Shown: positions 4,801 through 38,233 of the stretch, one piece after another
How positions within the stretch are numbered: position 1 is the stretch's first letter
Layout: every line of letters starts with the position of its first letter
From: Chryseobacterium sp. LAM-KRS1
GTDB taxonomy: Bacteria; Bacteroidota; Bacteroidia; Flavobacteriales; Weeksellaceae
Reading direction: 5' to 3'
DNA length: 64,000 nucleotides
Assembly (NCBI RefSeq): GCF_013184525.1
Contig: NZ_JAAOIZ010000003.1
Location: 620,001 to 684,000 of the forward strand
Made by a program: the position numbers and the translations under genes
Notes under the pieces: generated by a model
The model's input: only the letters and a program-made list of their open reading frames with translations
Databases searched by the model: none
Told to the model about the DNA's origin: nothing

Positions 4801-7800
4801 ACCAGGAAACCGTCGCAGTAGATGCACTAACACCTGTTACAGAAATTGGCGAAGGCGCAGCTGTAGAACATGGTTGTAGGTCTACAATTTTAACAGCATA
4901 ATCCTCTACTTCACCATTAGTAACATTGACACATGGATCATTGATATTTGATGAAGAAATGATGACTCTCATTCTAAGGGTAAGCGGACCATTATACGAT
5001 GTGTTTGGAACCGTATATGTTGCCGTAATCGGAGTTGTAGTACTCGTTGTACTGTTGATTACCCTTTCATTGTTTTCAAAAATTCCGTTTCTGTTAAAAT
5101 CGATCCATGCTCCAACAGCCAGAGACGGAGGGAATGTACTCGGTGTGATCCATGATTTGCTCACAGAAATTGCATTATTTGCAGATCCACGTACTAACGT
5201 AATCAATTTAGTTGGATCCACGGAATAATCCGTATAAGAGTTTGCTCCGGAATCATTATTCATAATATATGAATTGGTCGGAGTCATCTTAACATTTGAA
5301 ATATATCCGTTGGTACTGTTACCTGTTACGGTACAGTAGTTAACCGCCGGAGTACTGAACTGAACAGGAGCTGTAAACGTTCCAGTAGTCCCGGAACAAA
5401 TATATGCCACACGAACTTCGTACTGTGAAGATTCTGTTAAACCTGTAATCGTATAAGCACTGGTTGTTAATGGAACAGGTATCCATGCGGTTGCGCCAAC
5501 AGCTCTGTATTCAAGTATATAGGTTGCTCCTACAGCAGGGTCCCACATTACGTAAGCTGATGTAGCCGTAATATTTGTTACGCTTAAATTCAATGGAGCA
5601 TTACTTGTACAAGGTATAGGCTGAATTAATTTCACAGCATAATCTTCTACTTCTCCATAAGTAAAGTTCTGACACATCACAGAAGGAGAGCTAAAGCTTA
5701 GAGCCACTCTCATTCTTGTTGTAGAAGGTCCATTATATGCATTGGCAGGAACTGGAAATGTAGCTGTAACCGGGGTAGTTGTACTTGCCGGAGAAGTCAT
5801 TACCTGTTCATTTGTTTCAAAAATTCCGTTTCGGTTAAAGTCAATCCATACATTCACAGCTTCACTATATGTACTACCCGTCCACCCTTTCGAAACAGAA
5901 ATTGTATTGTTAGCAGACCCGATCACAAGATTTACCAAAGCACTTGCTGTTGTCGTGTAATCAGTATAAGTAGTTCCTAAAGAAGTATTACTCATTACGG
6001 CAGCTCCCGTAGGTGTTACTGTAACATTAGCAATATACTCATCATTAGAATTGCTTGACTGCATCTGACAGTAGTTTAGTCCCGGTGTTGTAAAGTTAAC
6101 AGAGGTAGAGAAAGTACCCTGCGTTCCTGAACATACATTAGCAACCTGAACTTCGTATTGAATTCCATCCGTAAGCCCTGTTAATACTGTAGTATTGGTC
6201 GTAGCATTTACTGTAATCCATGTTGTGCTTCCAACAGGACGATACTGAACAACGTAAGTTGCTCCGGCAGAAGCTGCCCAGGAAACAGTAGCCTGAGTCT
6301 GAGTAACTGCAGAAACTGTAATACCAGTCGGCGCAGCTCCAGTACATGCAGCTAAACTGGCTACTGTAGCACTGCCAATGGCATAAAATACATTTCCGAT
6401 CGCACTTACTCTGATTTTCACGGTAGACCCTAATGTTAAAGCTCCAAAAGTTAAGCTTTCACTTCCATCATTAGGAGTAGATGGCGCCAAAACATTCCAG
6501 GTAACTCCATTGTCCGTAGTGTAATCTATTTTAACATTAGCAACACTATAAGGAGCAGCTGTGGTATTTACCACATCCCAGGTTACAGTGCTTGGTCCGT
6601 TATTATAAGCTGTTGCTGTTGTAACCTTAAAAGGTCCTGCACTACCTACGATAATTGTTTGTTCAGCAAACTGTGTCTGCTGTTGATTCGCAATGGGACT
6701 ATTATCTCTTACTGTTACAGAGAACTTGGTTGTTCTCGCAACATTAGAAACAGATTCCCATCCATTATTCGAATTGTTAAGAACTCCGGCAAGCACAGAA
6801 GATAATTTAGGAAAATATCTTGTTGGACTTGTCGTTGGCAATACCGATCTAAAGGTTGCACCTGAAGTTGTTGTTCCTAAATTATTCTTGTTAATAGTAA
6901 CGCTTGCATTATCCACTTCTTCCCAGGTATAGGTCATTGGATCATTTTCCGCATCGGTGGCAGAAGCTGTTAATACGAATGCTGTTCCTTTAGGAATATT
7001 ATAAGTTGGTAATGCAGAAATCACAGGTGGATTGTTGGCAACTGTAGTTTCAACATCACAGGTTTTAGAAATTAGGTTAGCCTGTACCTGCTTGATACTG
7101 GCGATATGAAAATAATCATCTGAGTGAGGCTGAACATCGGTATTAGGCCCGGTAATTCCGGCATACCCCATAATTGTGGATCCAGAACCGGGTTCCATAT
7201 TCACCCCTGTTCCTTCAAGACCGTGAGAAAATGTATGATTTGCTCCTAACTGATGACCCATTTCATGGGCAACATAATCAATATCAAAATTATCTCCTTG
7301 TGGAATCCCATCTGCTGGCGATGTATATCCGGATCCTTTTCCTTTCGGAACTCCTGTAGTTGGATCTACGCAAACGCATCCGATACATCCTGCATTACCT
7401 CCACCTCCGGAAGCACCAAATAAATGCCCTATATCGTAATTGGCATTACCTACATTAGCCGTTAAAGTATTTTGCAATTCTAGATTCCATGCACCTCCAG
7501 CTCCTGCAGCAGCCGGAGAATAAGGGTCAGTTGCCGGGTTAGTATAAATTACACCCGGAAAGTTCTGTAAATTTAAGTGTAAAGCAAAATCTTTTTCAAA
7601 TACACCATTTACCCGGGTAAGCGTTGCATTAATAGCCGCCATCGCTCCAGGAACTGTTCCTCCATGAAACTGGGTATACTCTCCTGTTACAGACATTACC
7701 AATCTCATTGTTCTGTACTTCTTATCTGAAGACTTCGCAAAATTAGTGGTCTGATTGCTAAATGCAGATCCCTTCTGATAAAGTTTATTGATCTCTTCCT

Positions 7801-34896: not shown

Positions 34897-35682
34897 ATGA
34901 AAGCAATCTGGAATGGCGCCATTGGCTTTGGCTTAGTAAATATCCCTGTTAAAATATATTCAGCAACAGAAACCAGCAAACTGGATCTTGACATGCTGGA
35001 TAAATCTGACTTTTCTAACATAAAATTCAAAAGAGTTAATGAAAAAACAGGGAAAGAAGTAAAGTGGGAAAATATTGTGAAGGCTTACCTGATGGAAGAC
35101 CGGTATATTGTTCTCGACGATGAGGATTATGCAGCGGCAAGTCCTGAAAAAAGCAAAATATTATCGATCGACCAGTTTGTAAAAGAATCTGAAGTAGATA
35201 GTGTTTATTTTGAAAATCCATATTTTCTTGAGCCCCAGAAAAATGGGGAAAATGCTTACAGGCTTCTCATGAAAGCTTTAACAGAAACCGAAATGGTAGG
35301 TGTAGGAACATTTGTATTGCGCGAAAGTGAAGCAATAGGGATGATCAGGCCATACAATGAAGAGGTTCTTATTCTCAACCGATTACGCTTTGATCAGGAA
35401 ATAAGAGATTACCATGATTTAAAAATCCCGGCTAAAAAAGCTCCTAAACCTGCAGAATTAAAAATGGCAGTAAGCCTTATTGAGCAGCTTTCCCAGAAGT
35501 TTGATCCTACGATGTATAAGGATACTTACTCTGAATCACTCATGAAGATCATTAAACAGAAAGCTAAAGGTAAGAGTGTTAAGGCTCAGAAAGCTGAACC
35601 TGCAAAAGAAGGAAAAGTAATTGATTTGATGGCTCAATTAAAAGCTAGTTTACAAAGTTCAAAATCTAAAAACGCATCCTGA
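34897..35682 (+). CDS. ku: Ku protein (non-homologous end joining)
   Basis: A bacterial Ku homodimer subunit that binds double-strand DNA ends and recruits LigD. The typical N-terminus MKAIWNGAIGFGLVNIPVKIY, the Ku core (IDQFVKESEVDSVYFENPYFLEP, LNRLRFDQEIRD) and a lysine-rich tail (KQKAKGKSVKAQKAE) that helps bind DNA are all present. The length of 261 residues is normal. The stop and the start of the next gene share a base (TGATG), indicating translational coupling with ligD. Confidence 0.94.
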   Translation: MKAIWNGAIGFGLVNIPVKIYSATETSKLDLDMLDKSDFSNIKFKRVNEKTGKEVKWENIVKAYLMEDRYIVLDDEDYAAASPEKSKILSIDQFVKESEVDSVYFENPYFLEPQKNGENAYRLLMKALTETEMVGVGTFVLRESEAIGMIRPYNEEVLILNRLRFDQEIRDYHDLKIPAKKAPKPAELKMAVSLIEQLSQKFDPTMYKDTYSESLMKIIKQKAKGKSVKAQKAEPAKEGKVIDLMAQLKASLQSSKSKNAS

Positions 35683-36284
35683 TGGCTCTTAAAGATTATA
35701 ACGAAAAAAGGAAATTTAACGAAACAAGTGAACCTAAAGGCAAAACAAAAAAGAGTAAGGATCAGCTTATTTTTGTCATCCAAAGACATGCTGCCTCACA
35801 TCTTCATTATGATTTTCGTTTAGAGATGGAAGGAGTTCTAAAAAGCTGGGCAGTTCCTAAAGGCCCTTCTTTAGATCCAAAGGATAAACGTCTGGCTATG
35901 ATGGTTGAAGACCACCCTTATGACTATAAAGATTTCGAAGGAAATATACCCGAAGGAAATTATGGAGCCGGACAAGTCGAAGTCTGGGATAGTGGAACTT
36001 ATGAACCTTTAGAGAAAGACAGCAAGCTTTCTGACGAAAAAGAATTGTTAAAAGAACTTCATGCAGGATCTTTGAAATTTATTTTACACGGTAAAAAGCT
36101 GAAAGGTGAATTTGCTTTGGTAAAAATGAAAAACACGGAAGGGAATTCCTGGTTACTCATAAAACATAAGGATGACTTTGCAGAAGCTGGCTATAATGCC
36201 GAAGACAATACCTCTCCCAAATCTTTGGTAACAAAATTCTTAGAGGAAAAAAAAAGCCTAAAAAACAACAAAAAGAAGTCATAA
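35682..36284 (+). CDS. LigD phosphoesterase domain (5' frame of split ligD)
   Basis: A 200-residue product equal to the 3'-phosphoesterase domain of LigD, which trims 3'-phosphates and ribonucleotides at breaks. The catalytic set RHAASHLHYDFRLE (H36, H40, H42, D44, R46) and EDHPYDY (H78) is complete, followed by EGNIPEGNYGAGQVEVWDSG. Residues after about 190 (SLKNNKKKS) arise from the frame past the A-run and are probably not native. Stand-alone PE proteins exist in other bacteria, so this product could be active on its own. Confidence 0.8.
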   Translation: MALKDYNEKRKFNETSEPKGKTKKSKDQLIFVIQRHAASHLHYDFRLEMEGVLKSWAVPKGPSLDPKDKRLAMMVEDHPYDYKDFEGNIPEGNYGAGQVEVWDSGTYEPLEKDSKLSDEKELLKELHAGSLKFILHGKKLKGEFALVKMKNTEGNSWLLIKHKDDFAEAGYNAEDNTSPKSLVTKFLEEKKSLKNNKKKS

Positions 36285-36355
36285 CATCAAAGCCTGAATT
36301 TAAAAAATTCAATGCATTAGCTGATGAAAAGAAGCTTACCTCTTTCATTAAGCCT

Positions 36356-38233
36356 ATGTTGGCGAAGTCCTATGAAAAAGCATTTGATTCCCCGGAATGG
36401 ATCTTTGAAATCAAATGGGACGGCTACAGGGCTATAGCCGATCTGAGCAAAAATGATCCTTTATTTTATTCAAGAAACGGAATTTCTTTTTTATCAAAAT
36501 TCAGAAAAGTTACCCAAGACTTTAGTCTTCAAAAGCAAAAAATGATTTTGGATGGAGAAATTGTGGCCTATGACGAAAACGGAAAACCCAATTTCCAACT
36601 ATTACAACAGATTGGTGATAATCCTGATCTCGCCCTGGTATATCAGGTTTTTGATCTGCTTTGGCTGAATGGCCATTCTACCGAACAACTCCCATTATTG
36701 CAAAGAAAAGAGCTGTTAAAAGAAGCATTGGTAGAAACAGAAATGATTAAATATTGTGACCATATCCCTGAAAATGGAATCAGTTTTTTCAATCAGATGG
36801 AAAAAATGCAACTTGAAGGCATGATCGCAAAAAAATCCGATAGCCAGTATGTTGAAAATCACAGAACTTCTGATTGGTTAAAAATAAAATTCACCAGTAC
36901 TGAAGAAGTCATTATCTGTGGATTCACAGAACCCAGAGGTTCCAGAAAAGGCTTCGGAGCATTGATATTAGGAAAATATAAAGGTGGAAAGCTCATTTAC
37001 TCCGGACATACAGGAACGGGATTCAATAGTGAATCTTTGAATCAACTTCATCAGCGTTTGGAAAAGTTAATTATAAAAAATTCACCGTTTGACAAAATCC
37101 CCAAAACCAATATGCCAGTCACATGGGTAGAACCGAAACTGGTTTGTGAAATCAAATATTCTGAAATCACCAAGGACGGAATTTTCAGACATCCTGTTTT
37201 TATCACGATCCGGGAGGATAAAAACCCGGAAGAAATCAATGATTCCGCCAATAAAGTGAACCCAAAAAATGAAAAACCTAAAAAAATGAAAGCCACTACA
37301 TCATCAAAAAATACTGAAAAAGAAAAGGAAGTTACTTTAGATAAGCATAAAGTAAAATTGACAAATCAAGATAAAATATATTTTCCGGAAGATGGTATAT
37401 CAAAAGGAGATGTGATTGAATACTATCAATCGGTTGCCAGATATATTTTACCGCATCTGAAAAACCGTCCGTTATCCTTAAACCGTTTCCCAAACGGAAT
37501 TGAAGAACAAGGTTTTTATCAGAAAGATGCCAGTGACAATACTCCGGAATGGGTAAAAACAACACAGGTTTATTCTGAATCCAACGATAAATATATTGAT
37601 TATATCTACTGTAATGATAAAGCCACACTCGCTTATCTTAATAATCTAGGTTGTATAGATCTCAACCCCTGGAACAGTTCACTCCCTGATCTTGAACATC
37701 CCGATTATTTAGTGCTTGATCTCGATCCCTCTAAAAAAAATACATTTGATGATGTTATTGAAACCGCCTTACAGGTAAATGAAGTCCTGAAGTCAATTAA
37801 AGTGAAAGGGTATTGTAAAACATCAGGAAGTACCGGAATTCACATCTATATTCCGATGGGAGGTAATTATGAATTCGATCAGGTAAAGGATTTTGCTCAT
37901 ATTGTCATGAAACAGGTCAATGAAAAACTTCCTAAAATAACCACCTTAGAAAGAAGCCTTCAAAAAAGGGATGATAAGAAAATCTATCTGGATTACCTTC
38001 AAAACAGAACAGGACAAACGTTGGCAAGTGCTTACAGCTTACGTCCAAAACCGGGAGCTTCGGTTTCTATGCCGATTGCATGGGAAGAATTAAAGCCCGG
38101 ATTAAAACCTACAGATTTCAATATCCACAACGCACTTGACAGGATTAAAGAAAAAGGAGATTTATTTAAACCGGTTTTAGGAAAAGGAATTGATATGATG
38201 AAGGCGTTGGATTTATTGCAGAATTTAGGATAA
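36356..38233 (+). CDS. LigD ligase-polymerase part (3' frame of split ligD)
   Basis: A 625-residue frame holding the ATP-dependent DNA ligase domain (motif I KWDGYR with K20, DGEIVAYD, EGMIAKK, DWLKIK), an OB-fold (about 190-290), and a lysine-rich linker. The primase-polymerase domain then follows from about 325 (KLTNQDKIYFPEDGISKGD, the metal-binding LDLDPS, SGSTGIHIY, DYLQN). The ATG at 36356 is the Met of the conserved FIKPMLA segment and has no obvious ribosome-binding site. It is therefore more likely an internal Met of full-length LigD than a genuine start. Confidence 0.8.
   Translation: MLAKSYEKAFDSPEWIFEIKWDGYRAIADLSKNDPLFYSRNGISFLSKFRKVTQDFSLQKQKMILDGEIVAYDENGKPNFQLLQQIGDNPDLALVYQVFDLLWLNGHSTEQLPLLQRKELLKEALVETEMIKYCDHIPENGISFFNQMEKMQLEGMIAKKSDSQYVENHRTSDWLKIKFTSTEEVIICGFTEPRGSRKGFGALILGKYKGGKLIYSGHTGTGFNSESLNQLHQRLEKLIIKNSPFDKIPKTNMPVTWVEPKLVCEIKYSEITKDGIFRHPVFITIREDKNPEEINDSANKVNPKNEKPKKMKATTSSKNTEKEKEVTLDKHKVKLTNQDKIYFPEDGISKGDVIEYYQSVARYILPHLKNRPLSLNRFPNGIEEQGFYQKDASDNTPEWVKTTQVYSESNDKYIDYIYCNDKATLAYLNNLGCIDLNPWNSSLPDLEHPDYLVLDLDPSKKNTFDDVIETALQVNEVLKSIKVKGYCKTSGSTGIHIYIPMGGNYEFDQVKDFAHIVMKQVNEKLPKITTLERSLQKRDDKKIYLDYLQNRTGQTLASAYSLRPKPGASVSMPIAWEELKPGLKPTDFNIHNALDRIKEKGDLFKPVLGKGIDMMKALDLLQNLG

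Follow-up and report, generated by a model that had tools for sequence, protein, structure and literature searches.

The window analysed here, a stretch of 64,000 nucleotides from Chryseobacterium sp. LAM-KRS1, carries a ku gene followed by ligD, and all features described lie on the + strand. The ku gene (34897..35682, 261 aa) was read directly and is matched by the Pfam Ku model (PF02735) with an E of 6e-47. Its stop codon TGA overlaps by one base the ATG of the next ORF (TGATG). This ORF, whose frame we call the zero frame, spans 35682..36284 (200 aa, TAA at 36282-36284) and encodes a 3'-phosphoesterase (PE) domain with a Lys-rich tail. The ligase and polymerase domains of LigD are found in the -1 frame at 36356..38233, 625 aa counted from the first ATG. 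A run of nine A (36247..36255) with G on both sides marks the site of the frame change. The sequence GAGG (36243..36246) is directly upstream of the run, and a G at 36256 closes it, making the Lys codon of the -1 frame AAG and not AAA. A -1-frame linker then extends up to the first in-frame ATG (36256..36355), which translation can reach only after a change of frame. The zero-frame codons across the run are GAG GAA AAA AAA AGC. The short ORF stops 26 nt past the run, and a gap of 71 nt separates this stop from the ligase ATG. The first-pass annotation had placed the PE and ligase-polymerase parts in different frames at the A9 run, with a -1 frame running through it without a stop, and had counted a single 850-residue LigD once the frame is restored. 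Direct reading of the window bears this out: the -1 frame is open from 36197 through the run, and by arithmetic the read-through product has 850 codons.

All three domains are intact by model comparison. LigD_N (PF13298) is matched completely (1-107 of 107), as are the Pfam ligase and Prim-Pol models, and the NCBIfam models LigD_PE_dom, NHEJ_ligase_lig and ligD_pol all score above their cut-offs. With TIGR02777, TIGR02779, TIGR02778 and TIGR02776 as the curated models for LigD membership, PE, ligase and polymerase domains above the curated cut-offs are found next to ku. The long subfamily model PRK05972 stays below its cut-off even for the naturally fused gene L037 (796 of 895 bits). By eye, the window has the motifs KWDGYR in the ligase and DLDP in the polymerase, and its PE, ligase and polymerase domains match solved domains of those kinds. 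Pseudomonas-type LigD has the order PE-ligase-polymerase in one reading frame. The split ligD has the same domain order and linker as these one-frame enzymes and the fused relatives, which need no recoding; its domains lie in two frames, while those of L037 lie in one. An Rfam search around the locus gave 13 matches with E up to 5, all under the gathering scores and none at the run.

A search of 173 Chryseobacterium genomes found the PE domain in 145. Leaving out one weak match (G016), we read 150 PE-ligase places in 144 genomes, the window's own included. Relative to PE, the ligase frame is -1 in 137 of them, equal in 11 and +1 in 2. Such recurrence of the offset is more than chance would give, and a break kept in more than 100 related species looks deliberate rather than a mistake or a dead gene. 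By identity the places fall into three kinds: 138 of type 1 (the main gene), 10 paralogues with a PE about 70% identical, and 2 more distant ones. Type 1 is split by -1 in 131 places from 128 genomes, has both parts in the same frame in 6 and shows +1 in 1. The paralogues are -1 in 6 places, fused in 3 and +1 in 1; both distant places are fused. A set of named records, which overlaps the 150 places, has the -1 offset in 60 of 64 Chryseobacterium loci. The comparison with related Chryseobacterium ligD that the first-pass annotation had suggested shows the offset in most of the places read across the genus. The identical A9 break is present in G090, a genome of the same species in a single contig. 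The ku stop overlaps the PE start in 108 of the 131 type-1 -1 places (TAATG in 88, TGATG in 20). The ligase-polymerase frame is full-length in 100 of the 101 type-1 -1 places whose locus reaches the end; the other 30 loci end too early for this check. A second type-1 copy in one genome (L171 of G119) has a truncated ligase-polymerase frame (425 aa) and an intact slip site. In Chryseobacterium sp. E1 (L208 and L098) several frame breaks run across ligD, probably owing to poor assembly; L208 is one of the six same-frame places.

The -1 frame upstream of the ligase ATG behaves as coding sequence. Starting at the run, it reaches the first ligase ATG without a stop in all 131 type-1 -1 places. Between the zero-frame stop and this ATG, a span of 23-27 codons, the other two frames contain stops in 124 and 127 of the 131. 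Differences at -1-frame codon positions 1/2/3 in this span are 0.186/0.166/0.489, computed for pairs within two equal-length groups of 65 and 54. A frame that is free of stops and evolves as coding is expected to be translated, here by way of a frame change. The ligase region itself is constrained as well: in a sample of every third type-1 place, its first 120 codons differ by 0.178/0.064/0.477 at positions 1/2/3. The offset is thus conserved across species and both frames are under coding constraint, as in recoded genes.

The slip site is conserved in length and in its flanks. Of the 131 type-1 -1 places, 128 have A9 and 3 have A10, the latter by a border substitution. An A or T run of roughly nine or longer, kept at the same length in homologues, is what characterises a transcriptional slippage site, and the type-1 site has it. 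GAGG stands directly 5' of the run in 128 places and GG in 130. The codon before the run ends in G in all 131, also where it is CAG or AAG, and GAG makes up 14% of the Glu codons in these genes. A G closes the run in 129 of 131, giving AAG as the -1-frame Lys codon though AAG accounts for 15% of Lys codons here. Both flanks of the type-1 run are retained in the face of codon preference. Across the 173 genus genomes there are 131 copies of GAGG-A9-G, spread over 126 genomes and, by position, within ligD in 128 cases, against 8 copies of the reversed pattern. In the window's genome there are 163 exact A9 runs. Open frames of at least 150 codons hold 11 of the first 30, several of them near a frame end, which does not distinguish polymerase from ribosomal slippage. 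Two other GG-A9-G sites of this genome sit in uninterrupted ORFs, a point that counts against the slippage reading. The zero-frame stop follows the run by 20-29 nt in the type-1 -1 places, and in 3 genomes the -1 frame opens just 2 nt before the run, which confines the change of frame to the run itself and the short stretch ahead of that stop. All 131 places give a short product of 198-201 aa. A zero-frame stop within 33 nt is likewise found in all 131, compared with an average of 0.47 per genome under synonymous recoding; since the genomes are related, this counts as weak support for selection.

A second ligD lineage has a slip site of a different build. A family search found the PE domain in 144 of 246 genomes, and 60 non-genus places were compared; left out, among the matches listed, were three places with open frames of 857, 859 and 819 aa and four paralogous places (953, 661, 906 and 922 aa). 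Of the 60, 28 are -1 and 32 fused, with PE frames of 829-868 aa in the fused ones. One genus (g9) is -1 in 19 of 21 places, another (g26) is fused in 24 of 29, and frame states are mixed elsewhere. The g9 genes and the Chryseobacterium paralogues together form the second lineage (31 places). The paralogues, a second ligD in ten Chryseobacterium genomes (L219-L228), group with g9 on the tree, as if horizontally transferred. All 31 places have a T before the run, and the frame follows from the run length in every one: A10 gives -1 (25), A11 fused (5) and A9 +1 (1). In the 25 -1 places the short product always ends at 203 aa and the -1 frame always opens 2 nt inside the run. The site, GT-A10, is without the type-1 flanks and also offers the heptamer A AAA AAA. 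An A run alone proves nothing, because fused genes, too, often have a long one in this Lys-rich linker; A9-A11 is present in 17 of the 24 fused g26 places.

On a FastTree tree of 209 proteins, from which the noisy L208 was excluded, accounting for the frame states takes at least 20 changes, 10 of them within Chryseobacterium. The five fused type-1 genes on the tree are single tips amid split relatives; three are fused by a tenth A (L209, L212, L215), and two keep A9 and carry a downstream indel. Over the two lineages eight places are fused by run length, and with the two type-1 indels these indicate that the split is not essential everywhere. At the level of the order, 58 of 296 genomes searched match the PE model. 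In f3, another family of the order (20 places), 14 are fused, three are apparent two-gene splits and three have PE without a matching ligase part; the last (L334, L335, L336) are PE-like ORFs that appear to be free-standing phosphoesterases within the stretches fetched. Two metagenome-assembled genomes also show offsets in the linker before position 5001: a Bacteroidetes one (L102) of -1 near an A10 run, and an Ignavibacteria one (L101) of +1. They could be further recoding or assembly errors.

Taken together, these comparisons make it very likely that recoding of one kind or the other, by polymerase or by ribosome, occurs in ligD. Probably, the Chryseobacterium gene yields a free PE and a full LigD by RNA-polymerase slippage on the A run, an arrangement that would serve to keep LigD scarce. 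Ordinary decoding would give the free 200-aa 3'-phosphoesterase, ending at the stop 26 nt beyond A9. RNA polymerase would slip on the run and leave some transcripts with one extra A (or 1+3n), and these events would shift decoding to the -1 frame, giving the full PE-ligase-polymerase LigD of 850 aa. The genes ku and PE/LigD are probably on one message, given the overlap of stop and start. Full LigD would then be scarce relative to Ku and PE, and free PE would be supplied, maybe for end cleaning. The first-pass annotation had listed programmed slippage to a short PE and a full LigD among its possibilities, and the conservation, the flanks and the second site all speak for it. Polymerase slippage is favoured as the frame-changing step by the uninterrupted A9 or A10, by the lack of an RNA structure common to all type-1 places and by the precedent of an A9 run in Thermus dnaX. 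Uninterrupted runs of nine or ten A are found in 156 of 156 -1 places of both lineages. A run of nine A conserved in length among homologues is regarded as very likely used for slippage (PMC1088944).

More tentatively, GG-A9-G could be a purpose-built slippage cassette that determines how much free PE is made relative to full LigD. The bacterial pause signal has been described as G-10 Y-1 G+1 (PMC7876045). If the RNA 3' end is taken to be the last A, the type-1 site would present G at -10 (and -11) and G at +1, that is, two of the three parts of this signal. The nine-base hybrid would be all rA:dT, and the polymerase would pause exactly where the hybrid can slip. Such a pause cassette would explain the invariant third-position G, the closing AAG and the length of nine together. 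The second site has no pause-like flanks and would be a differently built dial.

The strongest competitor is programmed -1 ribosomal frameshifting, in which two tRNA-Lys, in tandem in the P and A sites, would move back by one base on A AAA AAA. The resulting proteins would be identical under either mechanism. Ribosomal frameshifting is a serious though lesser possibility, and we judge polymerase slippage the more likely of the two. The slippery heptamer pointed out in the first-pass annotation is present in the zero-frame phase in the window (GA[A AAA AAA] AGC), in agreement with the X XXY YYZ pattern. This phase is kept in 130 of the 131 type-1 places (the remaining one begins AAA), and it fits a -1 heptamer at the second site as well, which counts against the polymerase reading. 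GAGG, present in 128 of 131, resembles a Shine-Dalgarno (SD) core. Its conservation is not needed by simple slippage and counts against polymerase in the same way. Against the ribosome, nine or ten uninterrupted A are kept where seven would do. GAGG is adjacent to the run and ends two bases before the P-site codon. SD-like stimulators of -1 ribosomal frameshifting lie further upstream, and GAGG is too close for the usual stimulation. In addition, Bacteroidia ribosomes sequester the anti-SD (PMC9976891), which makes GAGG doubtful as a ribosomal stimulator.

RNA structure gives a divided answer. In a search for perfect stems, compared with synonymous recoding over the 131 type-1 places, a downstream hairpin of at least 5 pairs occurs in 63 (21% expected) and is absent in 68. 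At least 45 of the 131 places carry GAAGT-NATA-ACTTC or a close form (e.g. GAAGT-CATA-ACTTC) near the zero-frame stop; the window does not. Over the first 40 nt downstream the mean folding z is -1.05 in 66 of the 131 type-1 places, with 32% under -2, against -0.02 for a control stretch in the ligase part; over 70 nt it is -1.28 at the 19 g9 sites. The commoner-than-expected hairpin and the lean to structure in g9 favour the ribosome and count against the polymerase. On the other side, the mean energy z against synonymous recoding over all 131 type-1 places is -0.32, the 100 nt downstream in the window have z -0.29, and no RNA structure common to every type-1 place was found.

The first-pass annotation had also raised a phase-variable switch, by which replication slippage would vary the run between cells and turn full LigD on and off. 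Rare length variants between genomes are in line with it. Near-identical g9 genes differ by one A, split with A10 (L285/L286) and fused with A11 (L283), so the frame can flip at the DNA level on short time scales. Two genomes named C. lathyri have A9 and A8 (L090, L097), and the tenth A fuses L209, L212 and L215. As the main function of the run this is improbable, since a single state is found in 131 of 138 type-1 and 25 of 31 second-lineage places where random phases would be mixed, and conservation of the flanks is not expected from it.

Still less probable are two separate proteins, with the ligase-polymerase initiating independently of PE at the ATG at 36356. An ATG does lie just upstream of the ligase domain, a TTG or GTG precedes it in the -1 frame in 27 of 131 places, and Bacteroidota initiate without SD. 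Apparent two-gene forms exist in f3, where three ligase ORFs (L337, L338, L339; 34-37% identical) have their own ATG at the PE stop. In type 1, no ATG, GTG or TTG is found in the -1 frame before the ligase ATG in 104 of 131 places. The candidate start Met is part of a KPM motif common to fused relatives too, and 71 nt separate it from the PE stop in the window. Above all, a start at this ATG leaves the conservation upstream of it unexplained: the 23-27 codons before it are stop-free in all 131 places and evolve as -1-frame coding. Two genes with independent starts, the condition named in the first-pass annotation for a true split, are disfavoured on this ground. Finally, homopolymers are common places for sequencing error and one noisy genome (L208) has several frame breaks, but an assembly or indel error, a very fresh disabling mutation or a decayed gene, as the first-pass annotation had also considered, has practically no probability left and is refuted by an A9 break found in 128 of 131 type-1 -1 places and in the one-contig conspecific, by the genus-wide offset, by the stop-free coding -1 frame and by a ligase region maintained under constraint.

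The closest known system is dnaX (tau/gamma) of Thermus thermophilus. Like ligD, it is a chromosomal gene of DNA metabolism with an A9 run, short and long products, and a stop codon soon after the run in the other frame (PMC1088944, PMC3711429). They differ in that the templated run encodes the long product in Thermus dnaX and the short product in ligD (PMC1088944, PMC3711429). The gene and the phylum also differ, and slippage in ligD is deduced from sequence. Escherichia coli dnaX uses a -1 ribosomal frameshift on A AAA AAG and shares with ligD the -1 direction, an A-rich slip site and two products; it has an upstream SD-like stimulator and a downstream hairpin (PMC3711429). In ligD, by comparison, the SD-like word touches the run, the perfect hairpin is present in only 63 of 131 places, and the run has nine or ten A. 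Transposase genes of IS elements with A-run slippage also join two frames at A9 into a fusion made by recoding (PMC1088944), whereas ligD is a host repair gene beside ku and not a mobile element. Among the open-access papers listed in literature searches, none dealt with recoding of LigD. The word 'ligase' does not occur in the available text of a recoding review (PMC5009743), and the sole ligase mentioned in the main text of PMC3711429 is the Mur ligase cluster. Recoding of LigD resembles the known dnaX-like kind, and its conservation, flanks and second site are new beyond the first-pass annotation.

If this reading is true, recoding produces a key bacterial end-joining enzyme throughout a genus and again in a second lineage, from ORF pairs that annotators would see as broken genes. 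A free 3'-phosphoesterase is predicted to exist beside full LigD in a set proportion, and the split may function in limiting end joining or in supplying an end-cleaning PE. The conserved GG-A9-G could also serve as a natural test case for the tuning of slippage by neighbouring bases. Should the tentative cassette also hold, one genus would have a dial devoted to end joining, and another lineage a second, differently built one.
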